From NCBI GenBank assembly GCA_950054395.1, contig CATLOZ010000005.1:1-39876 (forward strand): a stretch of DNA of 39,876 bases, given 5' to 3'. A model generated the notes under the pieces. The model saw nothing but the letters and a program-made list of their open reading frames with translations. It did not search any database and had not been told where the DNA came from. This DNA is from an uncultured Chloroflexota bacterium (GTDB lineage Bacteria > Chloroflexota > Dehalococcoidia > Lucifugimonadales > GCA-002694895). This document shows positions 5,888-12,403 of this stretch, piece after piece (within the stretch, counting starts at the first letter, position 1; every line of letters begins with the position of its first letter). A program made the translations under genes and the position numbers.

Positions 5888-6526
5888 ATGCCTCATTTAA
5901 TTCAAGAATTAAAAAGTAAAATTGAAAATGGGATAAATTGGGAAAAAGCAGTTGTTGATTGTATATCTGATTGGGATATAAGCGAAGAATTTTATAGAGG
6001 ATACAAATATAAATATTGGATAAATAACGAAGCGTTTGACTGGATGTCATTAACAGAAAGATTGGGCTCAGCAATAAAATCATATTTAAATAAAAAAAAA
6101 TACCATGAATTAATTTTTACAGGTCTATTACCCAGTAAAAGTAGCTATGAATATATGAAAAAAGTAATTTCAAAAAATAAACTGAGTCAAATGCGTAATT
6201 TTTATTATGGAATAATCATAGAAGATTTAATTTATATACAAAAATCACAGCAATATTTAAAAAACTCTATATATACCACAAATGAATATGATGGTTATGA
6301 GGAAATTTATGGCAAAAATATAAATTTATTATTTCAGCAATTTGCTAAAATTACGAAATTTACCAACCAAACCAAAATAAATCTCTACACATATAAAGAA
6401 TTCATATATTGGCTTTTTAAATTCAGAATAAAAAATTCAGATAAAACTAAAGTGGCAAGTGATACAAATCTATCTATAAAATTAGCAAAAAATATTTTAA
6501 ACGAAAAAATAACAATGCTTTTTTAA
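5888..6526 (+). CDS. Uncharacterised 212-residue protein, third gene of the prs-secA operon
   Basis: I do not recognise a characterised family. The protein is soluble-looking, with no signal peptide or membrane segment. It is rich in aromatic residues and lysine and probably mostly helical. A block NNEAFDWMSLTERLG near residues 47-61 resembles an AFDWL..AERL motif that I recall from uncharacterised Chloroflexota proteins; that memory is unverified. A second block, YYGIIIEDLIYIQKSQQYLKN, lies mid-protein. It starts 8 nt after the secA stop, so it is very likely co-transcribed with prs and secA. It could be a translocation accessory, but proximity is the only argument. Base composition is like its neighbours. 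The ORF is well supported by length and context; the function is unknown. Confidence 0.75.
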   Translation: MPHLIQELKSKIENGINWEKAVVDCISDWDISEEFYRGYKYKYWINNEAFDWMSLTERLGSAIKSYLNKKKYHELIFTGLLPSKSSYEYMKKVISKNKLSQMRNFYYGIIIEDLIYIQKSQQYLKNSIYTTNEYDGYEEIYGKNINLLFQQFAKITKFTNQTKINLYTYKEFIYWLFKFRIKNSDKTKVASDTNLSIKLAKNILNEKITMLF

Positions 6527-6773: not shown

Positions 6774-7346
6774 ATGAAAACAAATTTAAAAAATATTAAG
6801 ATGTCCACTCTGATAGTAATATCATTATTACTAAGCATTGGATTAATAGCATGTGCAGGCCCAGCTGGAACAGCTGGTGCATCTGGTGCGCCTGGTCTCC
6901 CTGGTCTTCCTGGGTTACAAGGTGCTGACGGAGCTCCTGGCAATCCTGGTCTTCCTGGTCTTCCTGGAATGCAGGGCGTACAAGGTAAGCCTGGTCTTCC
7001 TGGTCTTCCTGGTCTTCCTGGGTTACAAGGTAACATCGGTGATACCGGTTCAGCAGGTCCTCCTGGTCCACCTACATACTTGGTAGCTGATGCTACAACT
7101 GCTGGTGGTTCAACTAGTATTTACGGCGCTGGCTTTAAAGCAAATGGCCAAGTTGCTGTAACTGCTATAGCAGCTAAAGGCGGATTAGATAAATTCTTAG
7201 TTGGTGGTAAAGCTAATTCAAGCGGAGCTGTTTCATTAACAGTAAGTATTGCAGATGACTGGCCAGAAGGTGTTTATACTTTGATTGCTGAAGGAGAAGG
7301 CGGCGGAAAAGCTGCTGCAGCTCTTAAAATTACTGTTTCTAAATAA
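6774..7346 (+). CDS. Collagen-like lipoprotein, 190 aa (24 Gly-X-Y triplets plus one C-terminal beta domain)
   Basis: The N-terminus has a basic start, a hydrophobic stretch and the lipobox LIAC with the lipidated cysteine at C27, so it should be a Sec-exported, lipid-anchored surface protein. Residues 29-100 form 24 uninterrupted Gly-X-Y triplets. Many are GLP, and the run ends in GPPGPP, so a triple helix and hence a trimer is expected. Residues 101-190 form a compact beta-rich domain ([18 protein letters not shown] ... [10 protein letters not shown] ... ALKITVSK) resembling IPT/TIG or Ig-like folds; that is inference. The same domain occurs twice in the next gene. The codons of the repeat make this segment far more GC-rich than its surroundings. 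Good promoter, RBS and terminator signals suggest an abundant protein. Its binding partner is unknown. Confidence 0.9.
6900..7031 (+). repeat. GLP-coding 9-nt repeats with a duplicated 24-nt block
   Basis: The unit GGTCTTCCT (Gly-Leu-Pro) recurs in short tandem runs, and a 24-nt block ending in GGGTTACAAGGT is present identically at 6900-6923 and 7008-7031. This fits internal duplication of the collagen-like region. Such runs can expand or contract in 9-nt steps without shifting the frame. Confidence 0.8.
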
Positions 7347-7516: not shown

Positions 7517-8338
7517 ATGATCAAAGCCAAAACTATAATATTTTATGTATTACTTTTTTCCTTAACAATATCATGTACAGTAGAAGGAGAAATAGGTCCT
7601 AAAGGACCAATAGGTAATCAAGGAGAAATAGGATCTCAGGGAGAAAAAGGCAATCCTGGAGTCCCTGGAATTCAAGGAGTAAGCGGTCCTCCAGGTCAAT
7701 TAGGCAAAACTGGACCACAAGGGCAAGATGCTCCTCAACCTCAAGCAACTATAATTACAATAAATAATACAGTATTTACAATTCAAGAAGAAATTGAAAT
7801 ATGGGGGTCTGGATTCAAATCAGAAGAAACAATAACTTTATATATAAAAATTTCTGATACATTAGAATCTATAATCGGCACGGCGATATCTACAAAAAAC
7901 GGGTCTTTTACTACAAAAACAAAACCATTATTCAATAATTCTAAAATAAGTTCTCAAATTGTAAATCAATCGATTTATACAATTTTAGCTAAAGGATCGA
8001 AAAACAGTAAATCAAGTACTGCAATTCAAATTATACCTAAGCAAATTATACCTAAGCATCTTATTTCTCCTGACGCAAATTTGATAGTTTCGGCTACTGT
8101 ACCTAATGGCTCTACAGTAGCTTATGGATCAGGATTCAACTCGGATGAGAATTTTATTTTAGGTATTATATTAAATTCTAATACAACAAAAATACTTGGT
8201 TCTGGCACATCTAATAGTTCAGGTGCATTTAAATTAGAATCTACTATTGATTTGGGGACAGGAATTTACACTGTTATTGCAGAAGGAAAACAAGGATCTT
8301 CAGCTAGCGCGCCACTTTTGATTTCTTTATATAAATAA
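7517..8338 (+). CDS. Collagen-like lipoprotein, 273 aa (16 Gly-X-Y triplets plus two C-terminal beta domains)
   Basis: Paralogue of the preceding gene. The signal peptide ends in the lipobox LTISC with C20. Residues 24-71 are 16 continuous Gly-X-Y triplets, richer in charged and Gln residues (GPK, GEI, GEK) than the GLP-rich first protein. Two copies of the C-terminal domain follow. The first starts near IWGSGFKSEETITLYI and ends near YTILAKG. The second runs from VAYGSGFNSDENFI to GIYTVIAEG ... LLISLYK. They are joined by a linker containing a short duplication (IIPKQ/IIPKH). No strong Shine-Dalgarno site is seen, and the palindromic terminator lies between the two genes, so expression is probably separate and lower. 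The stop abuts the convergent glmU stop with no intervening base. Confidence 0.87.
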   Translation: MIKAKTIIFYVLLFSLTISCTVEGEIGPKGPIGNQGEIGSQGEKGNPGVPGIQGVSGPPGQLGKTGPQGQDAPQPQATIITINNTVFTIQEEIEIWGSGFKSEETITLYIKISDTLESIIGTAISTKNGSFTTKTKPLFNNSKISSQIVNQSIYTILAKGSKNSKSSTAIQIIPKQIIPKHLISPDANLIVSATVPNGSTVAYGSGFNSDENFILGIILNSNTTKILGSGTSNSSGAFKLESTIDLGTGIYTVIAEGKQGSSASAPLLISLYK

Positions 8339-9790: not shown

Positions 9791-10552
9791 ATGAATAAAC
9801 TTACATTTATACCAATTATTGGTATTCCTGAAATAAAATCAGGAGATAATATCCCAAAAATAATAAATAAAGGATTAAATACTAATAAAATAAATCTAAA
9901 AAATAATGATGTATTAGTAATAACACAAAAAATAATATCAAAATCTGAAGATAGAATAATAAATCTTACTTCGGTTAACCCAGAAAACAAAGCAGTAGAA
10001 CTCGGGGAAAAGTTAAAGAAAAACCCAAAGCTTATTCAGCTCATAATAGATGAAAGCAAATCAATAATTAAAATTGATAAAAATAGAGGGATAATTATTA
10101 CAGAAACTAAATTAGGACATATTTGTGCAAATTCTGGAATAGATTCATCAAATATTTATGGAACAAATAACGTTTCTTTGCTTCCTAAGGATCCTGACAA
10201 ATCAGCAAAATTTATTTATAAAAACTTAAAACAAAAATTCAAACTAGAAAATTTAGGTATTATTATTAGTGATACTTTTGGAAGACCATGGAGAATAGGC
10301 CAAACTAATATTTCAATAGGAAGTTATGGAATTAATCCATTCATTGATTACCGTAATAATACTGATGCATTTGGAAAAAAACTAAATACAACTAAAATAT
10401 GTATAGTTGATGAATTGTCTGGTGGCGCTGAAATATTAATGGAAAAGTCTTTAAAAATACCAGCTGTTCTAATAAGAGGAGTTAAGTTTCAATTTTCTAA
10501 TCAGGGGAGTAAAGAAATTCTTAGAGATAAAAATCTAGATCTATTTAGATAA
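9791..10552 (+). CDS. cofE: Coenzyme F420-0:L-glutamate ligase
   Basis: 253 residues. CofE adds gamma-linked glutamates to F420-0 in a GTP-dependent reaction. Supporting motifs are GIPEIKSGDNI at the N-terminus, DVLVITQKIISKSEDR, and the core SDTFGRPWRIGQTN / DYRNNTDAFGKKL, followed by DELSGGAEILMEKS. The protein is the single ligase domain; the C-terminal nitroreductase-like domain found fused in actinobacterial FbiB is absent. ATG at 9791 is chosen because the ATG at 9781 runs only five codons to a TAA that overlaps this start. No other F420 gene lies in the window. F420 narrows the host to lineages such as Chloroflexota, Actinomycetota or archaea. Confidence 0.9.
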   Translation: MNKLTFIPIIGIPEIKSGDNIPKIINKGLNTNKINLKNNDVLVITQKIISKSEDRIINLTSVNPENKAVELGEKLKKNPKLIQLIIDESKSIIKIDKNRGIIITETKLGHICANSGIDSSNIYGTNNVSLLPKDPDKSAKFIYKNLKQKFKLENLGIIISDTFGRPWRIGQTNISIGSYGINPFIDYRNNTDAFGKKLNTTKICIVDELSGGAEILMEKSLKIPAVLIRGVKFQFSNQGSKEILRDKNLDLFR

Positions 10553-10732
10553 TTAAATTGTTTCAGAATCAGAGTTATATTCAGATGACCAAACAGAAGT
10601 ATCAGTATAATTATAAAATTCTTTGGTTTTTCCGCATTTTTTACATCTGCCAATGCTTTTTGAACCAGATGGCTCTTCTATTACCCAATAACATATACAA
10701 TTTAACACTTCGAGTTCACTATTAACATCCAT
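10553..10732 (-). CDS. Small zinc-ribbon protein, 59 aa
   Basis: A complete small ORF (ATG at 10732-10730, TAA at 10555-10553) of 59 residues. It has a cysteine pair near the N-terminus (C12, C14 in NCICYWVIEEP) and a CxxCG knuckle (C30, C33 in GRCKKCGKTKEF), typical of a compact zinc ribbon. The W-V-I-E-x-P-x-G ... S-x-G-x-C-x-x-C-G-x-x-x-x-F layout matches small uncharacterised proteins I recall from Chloroflexota and Actinomycetota; this is memory, not a search. The tail is Ser/Tyr/acidic. Its stop abuts the cofE stop exactly, as at other convergent junctions in the window. It may be a regulatory or RNA/protein-binding accessory; the function is unknown. Confidence 0.8.
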   Translation of the reverse strand: MDVNSELEVLNCICYWVIEEPSGSKSIGRCKKCGKTKEFYNYTDTSVWSSEYNSDSETI

Positions 10733-10858
10733 AAATTAATTATCTCCAAATTGTGAAATATTTAACATATGAAATTATAACATATTAATTAATAAATGTC
10801 ATAAAATTATGCTTAATATAATAAAATATCATATAATAACAAAAAATATTACACATTT

Positions 10859-11314
10859 ATGAATTATTGGTTATTTAAATCTGAACCTTCAGACTATTCA
10901 TTTGAAAATTTCATTTCTGATAAAGAAACTTGCTGGGAAGGTATAAGAAATTATCAAGCTAGAAATTTCATTAGAGATGATATAAAGATAAATGATGAGG
11001 TCTTATTTTATCATTCAAATATATCCGAACCTCATCTTGTTGGACTTGCAAAAGTTATTCGTGAAGCATATCCAGATCATTACTCCTGGAACAAAGAACA
11101 TAAATATTATGATCTGAAAAGTTCTCCTGATAATCCTAGATGGTTTATGGTAGATATTAAAGCTATAAAGGAATTAAAAAGAATAGTTTATCTTAAAGAA
11201 ATAAAACAAGAACCAAAATTATCTAAAATGATTTTGTTAAATAATTCTAGACTTTCAATTCAACCTGTAAAAAAATGTGAACGGGATTTAATTATCAAAA
11301 TGTCAAATAATTGA
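10859..11314 (+). CDS. EVE-domain protein
   Basis: 151 residues filled by one EVE domain (thymocyte nuclear protein 1/YTH-related PUA-like fold). The hallmarks are MNYWLFKSEPSDYSFE, TCWEGIRNYQARNFIRDD, DEVLFYHSN, VGLAKVIREAYPD and PRWFMVDIKAI. Family members bind modified bases in DNA or RNA through an aromatic cage, and the bacterial ones are often stand-alone genes of unknown role. No methyltransferase or restriction gene is adjacent, so the target cannot be inferred. Its 3' end overlaps the convergent leuB gene by 12 nt. Identification is strong from the N-terminal motif. Confidence 0.92.
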   Translation: MNYWLFKSEPSDYSFENFISDKETCWEGIRNYQARNFIRDDIKINDEVLFYHSNISEPHLVGLAKVIREAYPDHYSWNKEHKYYDLKSSPDNPRWFMVDIKAIKELKRIVYLKEIKQEPKLSKMILLNNSRLSIQPVKKCERDLIIKMSNN

Positions 11315-12403
11315 CCTAATTTGTGAAGCTATAGAATCACCCATTTCAGAAGTTTTACACCATTTAGAATCGTGTGAAATATCTTTTGTTCTAAGACCAG
11401 AATTGATAACATTATCTACTGATTTGGTAATTAATTCAGAAATATCTTTATGTTCAAAAGCAAATTCAAACATCATAGCAGTACTCAAAATCATACCTAT
11501 CGGATTTGCAATAGATTTACCCGCTATATCAGGAGCACTCCCATGAATAGGTTCGTATAAACTTTTTAAATTACCATTAATATTCTCACCTGGGAAAAAT
11601 GATAATGAAGCCGAGGGTAACATCCCTAAAGAAGCGGATAATATAGAAGCTTCATCAGATAATATATCACCAAAAGTATTTTCTGATACTATCACATCAA
11701 ATTGTGAAGGATTTAAAATAAGCTGCATGGCAGCATTATCAACTAAAATATGATTTAATGTTACATCCGGATAATCTATGGCCAATTCATCAACAATTTT
11801 TCTCCATAATTTTGAAGTTTCAAGAACATTCGATTTATCTACTGACGTAAGTTTTTTAATTCTTGATTGAGCAATTTTAAATGACATTCTTACAATTCTT
11901 TCTATCTCATACTCATCGTAATACATAGTATCCACAGCTGCTCTTTTGGAATTATCATCAATTTGTTTTTTAGGCTGTCCGAAATACAAACCACTTGTTA
12001 ATTCTCTAATAATTAAAATATCTACATTATTTAATATTGATGATTTTATTGGTGAGGATTCTTTTAAAGCTTCAAATATTTTTACTGGACGTAAATTTGC
12101 ATATAAATCCAATCTTTTTCTTATATTTAAAATACCAAGTTCAGGTCGAAGATTACTTTCCAAATTATCCCATTTCGGACCTCCTACTGCACCAAAAAAT
12201 ACAGCTTTGCTATTTTCAATTAATTTTATTGTATCTTCAGTCAGTGGAGTGCCAAATTTATCAATTGATTCTCCACCAACAATTCCATATTCCAAATCAT
12301 ATTTATTTCCAGTAACATCTTCAATTGATTTAATAATTTTAATTGCTTCTTTAATAACTTCAGGACCAATACCATCTCCTGGTAAAACTGCTATATAACT
12401 CAT
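11303..12403 (-). CDS. leuB: 3-Isopropylmalate dehydrogenase
   Basis: 366 residues, normal for LeuB, which oxidatively decarboxylates 3-isopropylmalate to 2-oxoisocaproate with NAD in leucine synthesis. Motifs are LPGDGIGPEV, AVGGPKWDNL, RPELGILNIRKRLDLYANLRPV (substrate loop with the LeuB-type E-L-x-x-x-R), ELTSGLYFGQPK, VDNAAMQLILNPSQFDVIVSENTFGDILSDEAS and YEPIHGSAPDIAGK. The loop distinguishes it from the second dehydrogenase of this fold at 14879. It is the last gene of the tRNA-Nudix-dehydrogenase-leuS-leuB unit, 10 nt after leuS. Pairing leucyl-tRNA synthetase with a leucine enzyme hints at co-regulation, though no attenuator is visible. Confidence 0.95.
   Translation of the reverse strand: MSYIAVLPGDGIGPEVIKEAIKIIKSIEDVTGNKYDLEYGIVGGESIDKFGTPLTEDTIKLIENSKAVFFGAVGGPKWDNLESNLRPELGILNIRKRLDLYANLRPVKIFEALKESSPIKSSILNNVDILIIRELTSGLYFGQPKKQIDDNSKRAAVDTMYYDEYEIERIVRMSFKIAQSRIKKLTSVDKSNVLETSKLWRKIVDELAIDYPDVTLNHILVDNAAMQLILNPSQFDVIVSENTFGDILSDEASILSASLGMLPSASLSFFPGENINGNLKSLYEPIHGSAPDIAGKSIANPIGMILSTAMMFEFAFEHKDISELITKSVDNVINSGLRTKDISHDSKWCKTSEMGDSIASQIRSII

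Follow-up and report, generated by a model that had tools for sequence, protein, structure and literature searches.

The window (the whole stretch of 39,876 nucleotides analysed) carries on its reverse strand, at 10553..10732, a small zinc-ribbon-like gene, here called ZnR, which has an ATG start and 59 codons plus a stop and encodes the 59-residue protein MDVNSELEVLNCICYWVIEEPSGSKSIGRCKKCGKTKEFYNYTDTSVWSSEYNSDSETI. The preliminary description had read a 59-codon frame at exactly this place, its stop adjoining that of cofE, and had noted a W-V-I-E-x-P core with four cysteines, and we read it the same way: the protein has exactly four cysteines (C12, C14, C30 and C33), and the core appears as WVIEEP. 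An in-frame stop two codons upstream of the ATG leaves no longer ATG, GTG or TTG start. A putative ribosome-binding site, GGAG (10744..10747, reverse strand), can be read off the sequence 11 nt upstream of the ATG. Beyond it lies the promoter-like ATGACA-N17-TATAAT (10774..10802, reverse strand; 11 of 12 matches, with TG before the second hexamer), the best of the nine promoter-like sites in the stretch scanned, a number lower than in shuffled sequence (mean 16.1). The site also occurs in one of four congeners (L053) and was not found at the corresponding place in the other three (L052, L054 and L055).

The cofE gene (coenzyme F420-0:L-glutamate ligase; 9791..10552, forward strand; TIGR01916 at 238.3 bits, cut-off 180.65) converges on ZnR, and the two stop codons touch at 10552 and 10553. 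On the other side an EVE-domain gene (10859..11314, forward strand) diverges from ZnR, occupying the place that a SufR-like regulator takes in many relatives, and is followed by a leuB-like gene (11303..12403, reverse strand) whose synteny is kept across the genus. Far from these, a midA-like methyltransferase gene (PF02636; 38744..39823, reverse strand) marks the site of a second group of ZnR copies, group B, in relatives. Elsewhere in the window, a 212-aa ORF at 5888-6526 (forward strand) follows secA, has no Pfam match at E<=0.001 and has a related ORF in L055. Collagen-like GLP/GPP/GEK repeats mark two adjoining proteins, secreted or lipoprotein-like, that are encoded at 6774-7346 and 7517-8338 (forward strand); ORFs related to them lie nearby in L003 and L005.

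A possible objection is that there is no gene here and that the frame between cofE and the EVE gene is open by chance: the ORF is short, the window is AT-rich, and further frames of 40-70 aa are open in it too, many of which overlap real genes. Several lines of evidence refute this. First, all four congeners have a stop-free ZnR homologue in the syntenic position, neither stops nor lost cysteines appear there, and the gene order leuS-leuB-EVE/ZnR/cofE-glmU is common to the window and these four genomes. Second, the protein is well conserved: it is 73-75% identical to its counterparts in the three more distant congeners, compared with 58-67% for cofE, 63-69% for EVE and 68-73% for leuB, while identity to the nearest congener (90%) is slightly below that of the neighbouring genes (94-97%). 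Third, dN/dS, computable in seven of 10 congeneric pairs, ranges from 0.017 to 0.277, a rough estimate given that several pairs have dS >1 and dS is saturated in three, and it indicates purifying selection in close relatives. Fourth, of 60 genomes of the same order, the window's own genome included, 54 have ZnR matches (E<=0.01), 81 in total. Together with the promoter-like site these observations are more than chance would give. We conclude, with a probability of about 0.97, that ZnR is a real gene and its family uncharacterised, as the preliminary description proposed in calling it a genuine but easily missed small gene; the chance-frame explanation has next to no probability left. One of its arguments we do not retain. 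The touching stops were said to support the gene, but the stop-to-stop gap between ZnR and cofE, 0 bp in the window and in L002, is 15 bp in L004 and -12 bp in L003 and L005, and where the two genes converge in other families it ranges from 5 to 264 bp; contact of the stops is not conserved and is therefore weak evidence for the gene, an incidental detail.

At least two ZnR matches are present in 24 genomes of the order, which is probably SAR202-like, and six genomes have none, so ZnR is not strictly essential. In a wider sample of the phylum, ZnR was detected (E<=0.001) in 25 of 400 genomes, 24 of which belong to the same class; the single genome outside the class, G298, gives a weak match that is interrupted by a stop. 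Within the class, all nine listed genomes of family f42 lack ZnR. One locus, L007, carries the label Anaerolinea, by name another class. The family is thus nearly restricted to the class Dehalococcoidia, and the earlier term 'widespread' is apt within the class and hardly beyond it. The phylum sets are samples in which at most 14 candidates per genome were scored for ZnR and at most seven for SufR-like proteins. Neighbourhoods were read from 40 loci fetched from the 81 order matches, and from 39 loci fetched from 54 listed phylum matches plus one from an earlier set. The highest number of family matches in the 400-genome search was seven, in G394 (family f61). Phages and plasmids gave no tblastn match with one ZnR relative as query, and viral sequences gave none with another ZnR query; a viral homologue suggested by a single query (L170) was rejected as a chance frame opposite a longer ORF on a phage-like contig.

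Among 33 aligned members, C12, W16, G28, C30, C33, G34 and F39 are invariant, and the usual core is C-x-H-x-W ... G-x-C-x2-C-G. The window protein presents two knuckles with four Cys/His ligands (C12, C14, C30 and C33), the pattern of a zinc ribbon, and the corresponding places hold Cys or His in most other members read. A motif picked out 78 rows, of which 73 have His as second ligand and five, those of the window and its four congeners, have Cys; the motif required C-x-[HC], which biases these counts, and the 17 loci that it missed were read separately. Their first knuckle is HxH in seven, CxH in seven and ambiguous in three, and in three of the 17 the second knuckle is C-x-C. The four cysteines of the preliminary description are accordingly present in the window and exceptional in the family, where the usual set is Cys-x-His ... 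Cys-x2-Cys, with His-x-His in some distant members. Its zinc-ribbon-like core and its placing in an uncharacterised family are otherwise upheld, with zinc binding itself something that we infer from the ligand pattern. Zinc sites tolerate an exchange of Cys and His such as this, which argues against an obligate disulphide switch. The motif C-x-H ... C-x2-H is that of Rieske proteins, and the usual ZnR pattern, C-x-H-x15-C-x2-C, is one residue short of it; a Rieske-type Fe-S site was rejected, the last ligand being Cys in the window protein and in the 33 aligned members.

AlphaFold predicted strands at residues 14-18, 25-30, 36-40 and 47-50 of the window protein (mean pLDDT 62.5), and one helix with three strands for a Tepidiforma relative (mean pLDDT 63.5). 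Both models place strands around the second knuckle, so that the predicted outline is ribbon-like, at low confidence. With the window model Foldseek returned no match at E<=0.001 and the best Z in the fold search was 3.1; the model is poor, and this says little.

Three syntenic groups stand out among the copies. Group A, to which the window gene belongs, is found in contexts comprising a convergent cofE and/or a head-to-head winged-helix regulator and/or mrp; cofE is convergent within 600 bp, measured from match ends, in 29 genomes of 19 families. Near-consensus promoters lie upstream of group A genes (mean best score 9.12 versus 7.85 for 723 other genes). In group B the gene is flanked by gltA and midA, all in the same orientation (gltA-ZnR-midA), and the group is a single clade (support 100/94). 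Group C, from Tepidiforma and relatives, follows rimM (Pfam RimM in the two loci tested), has tRNA-Ala within about 250 bp downstream in 15 of 17 loci, and also forms one clade (support 92/72). Group A is not one clade (6 changes) in a tree from this short alignment, from which repeats or near-repeats (L002-L005, L133, L134 and L161) had been left out. Further copies occur elsewhere in other contexts. Within 5 kb of 81 ZnR rows, which still include L161 (a repeat of L064) and L133 (apparently the same record as L016), and with gene calls that are longest-ORF picks, we counted the regulator in 15, mrp in eight, cofE in 20, gltA and/or midA in 18, and none of these in 31. A divergent subfamily (CSHAWEIDRPNQQVSHGRC...) was seen in family f56 (L149 at about 6007, L151 at about 5922 and L152 at about 5768); the three genomes share its neighbourhood, with a malic enzyme gene and a NUDIX gene nearby.

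The recurrence of convergent cofE across those 19 families could be taken to mean that ZnR is dedicated to coenzyme F420 synthesis or use. Tail-to-tail genes have no common promoter, however, and cofE occurs in 288 of the 400 phylum genomes against 25 with ZnR, which makes the contact poor evidence for an F420 role; moreover, for six of the 25 ZnR genomes no cofE is shown (two listed as negative and four not among the listed positives). We consider an F420 role very unlikely, and cofE is probably an old neighbour in the gene order and not the functional partner of ZnR.

The regulator neighbour is more informative. Its best NCBIfam match is TIGR02702 (SufR), at 47.2, 64.2, 46.7 and 59.2 bits for four proteins; these are below the equivalog cut-off of 178.8 bits, hence the name SufR-like. 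The proteins combine a winged helix with three cysteines, invariant in all 16 aligned copies, at the x12 and x27 spacing of the proposed Fe-S ligands of Rv1460 (the regulator's cysteines are C163, C176 and C204 in L073). Where an order genome has the regulator (E<=1e-20) it is head to head with ZnR in 16 of 17 cases, and in the exception (G029) the two genes are on different contigs. The seeds of the regulator model (A3) were themselves neighbours of ZnR, so that the counts independent of its construction are those of non-seed genomes: the regulator is adjacent to ZnR in eight of nine order genomes outside model building, and in two of the three best non-seed class hits of the phylum draw (G438 and G347 yes, G327 no). 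With the six seeds included, the best class hits of that draw number nine, of which eight are adjacent and G327 is again the exception. Weaker SufR-like hits (E<=1e-30) occur in 204 of the 400 phylum genomes, most without ZnR; the tie to ZnR is therefore a property of the head-to-head subgroup and not of the SufR-like family as a whole.

Elsewhere in the class, mrp, an Fe-S carrier gene, lies beyond the regulator in five loci, and in three more it is directly divergent from ZnR (two of the mrp loci were identified by Pfam). A shared operator finds no support in 15 regulator-ZnR intergenic regions, where the best inverted repeats average 4.83 against 4.33 in shuffled sequence; L125 alone exceeded its shuffles (0 of 60). 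At about 3720-3760 of L125, a 7-bp inverted repeat is placed exactly between the promoter hexamers upstream of ZnR and is possibly an operator. We regard the SufR-like/mrp link as the best lead to ZnR function, at about one chance in three. A regulator of this kind next door in many relatives makes Fe-S shortage a candidate condition for ZnR production.

The window's own lineage lacks this arrangement. The regulator was not found in five genomes of the genus or in two of family f23 (genomes 65-89% complete), and at E<=1e-20 none is present in the genus or in 37 more of the 60 order genomes; ZnR must therefore work without it there. Mrp is present on other contigs in the genus and f23 genomes, each of which has one ZnR. 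At the group B site, gltA adjoins midA with no room for a gene between them in four congeners and both f23 genomes; the window contig ends 53 bp upstream of midA, placing gltA outside it. On the grounds of this adjoining pair and the absent regulator, copy B and the sensor appear to have been lost in the window's genus and copy A kept. That small genomes drop a paralogue and a sensor yet keep one ZnR suggests a function independent of either neighbour.

Our best guess for the function, a tentative one, is that ZnR is a structural zinc-ribbon adaptor ancestrally under the control of Fe-S status. The protein would fold around one structural zinc, with C-x-[H/C] as first knuckle, C-x2-C-G as second, and flexible ends. 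Ancestrally its gene would have been paired head to head with that of a SufR-like repressor that senses Fe-S status, with mrp after the repressor in several families; when clusters became scarce or oxidised the repressor would leave the shared intergenic region, and ZnR (and Mrp) would be made. ZnR may then act in trans, as an adaptor in the biogenesis of Fe-S or respiratory enzymes. In the small-genome genus of the window, sensor and copy B would be gone, leaving one ZnR that has a promoter to itself and lies tail to tail with cofE. Against the adaptor explanation, copies of groups B, C and others have unrelated neighbours, the intergenic regions reveal no shared operator, the regulator scores below the SufR cut-off, and six of the 60 order genomes do without ZnR.

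The same scatter of copies over several unrelated contexts would be expected if ZnR were instead a general translation or transcription accessory that binds RNA, the ribosome or RNA polymerase in trans, its neighbours reflecting inherited order only. Many small zinc ribbons bind these partners as accessories, and the position of group C after rimM and, in most loci, before tRNA-Ala would suit such a role. This explanation is possible, if somewhat on the unlikely side: it does not explain why one SufR-like subgroup is so closely paired head to head with ZnR, and no RNA-binding feature was identified in ZnR. A more elaborate proposal is a clade-specific Fe-S-stress module. It would comprise a SufR paralogue dedicated to ZnR, and ZnR, together with Mrp, would carry or pass on iron or an Fe-S cluster; later, in the lineage of the window, the sensor would have been dropped, ZnR made constitutive and His replaced by Cys. 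We think this improbable.

ZnR stays below the cut-off of every Pfam and NCBIfam model, and thus adds a conserved small-protein family that neither database models at that level. The nearest Pfam model is PF19134 (DUF5817), which matches the ribbon core weakly. The window protein scores 18 bits, below the gathering score of 31, and 20 of 33 aligned members, for which the comparison is by E-value, match at E<=0.1 (best 0.00046). The best NCBIfam match (E 0.013) is far below cut-offs, the best in PHROGs has E 0.015, and the best by sequence among solved structures has E 1.2. In the literature, nothing naming DUF5817 was found, nor a paper with both 'small zinc ribbon protein' and Chloroflexota, nor SAR202 together with zinc ribbon, nor any combining three of Dehalococcoidia, zinc ribbon, hypothetical protein and SufR; the titles and abstract openings name no such family. 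We take ZnR to be a small, previously undescribed family that is zinc-ribbon-like and in this respect of a known kind.

Resemblances to characterised ribbons are local. The G-x-C-x2-C-G half is alike in zf-ChsH2 for two of the 33 members (best E 0.0021), in Zn_ribbon_LapB for one (E 0.0029) and in the N-terminal finger of RadA (E 1.8), none of them significant. Rubredoxin-like zinc ribbons have C-x2-C as first knuckle, whereas that of ZnR is C-x-H. A parallel in architecture is Ruc (Rv0991c) of M. tuberculosis, described as a small zinc protein with one zinc-ribbon-like domain and a tail without predicted structure (PMC7448276), to which the small ribbon-like core and low-confidence tails of ZnR are similar. 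ZnR might by this parallel be, as Ruc is, a redox-regulated chaperone, in which oxidation causes zinc loss and disulphide formation and a disordered tail binds unfolded clients. This is unlikely: Ruc carries four Cys and its disordered part is longer, whereas in ZnR Cys and His interchange and most members have at least one His among the first-knuckle ligands, leaving no conserved four-Cys switch; the tail of the window protein has only about 18 residues; and among the genes at the loci read none was recognised as coding for a chaperone. For the regulator the likeness extends to SufR and Rv1460: C203, C216 and C244 of Rv1460, shown to be needed for function and proposed as Fe-S cluster ligands (PMC6034842), are spaced identically (x12/x27) to the three cysteines of the regulator, and the winged helix is shared as well. 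The regulator differs from SufR in that it adjoins ZnR and sometimes mrp.
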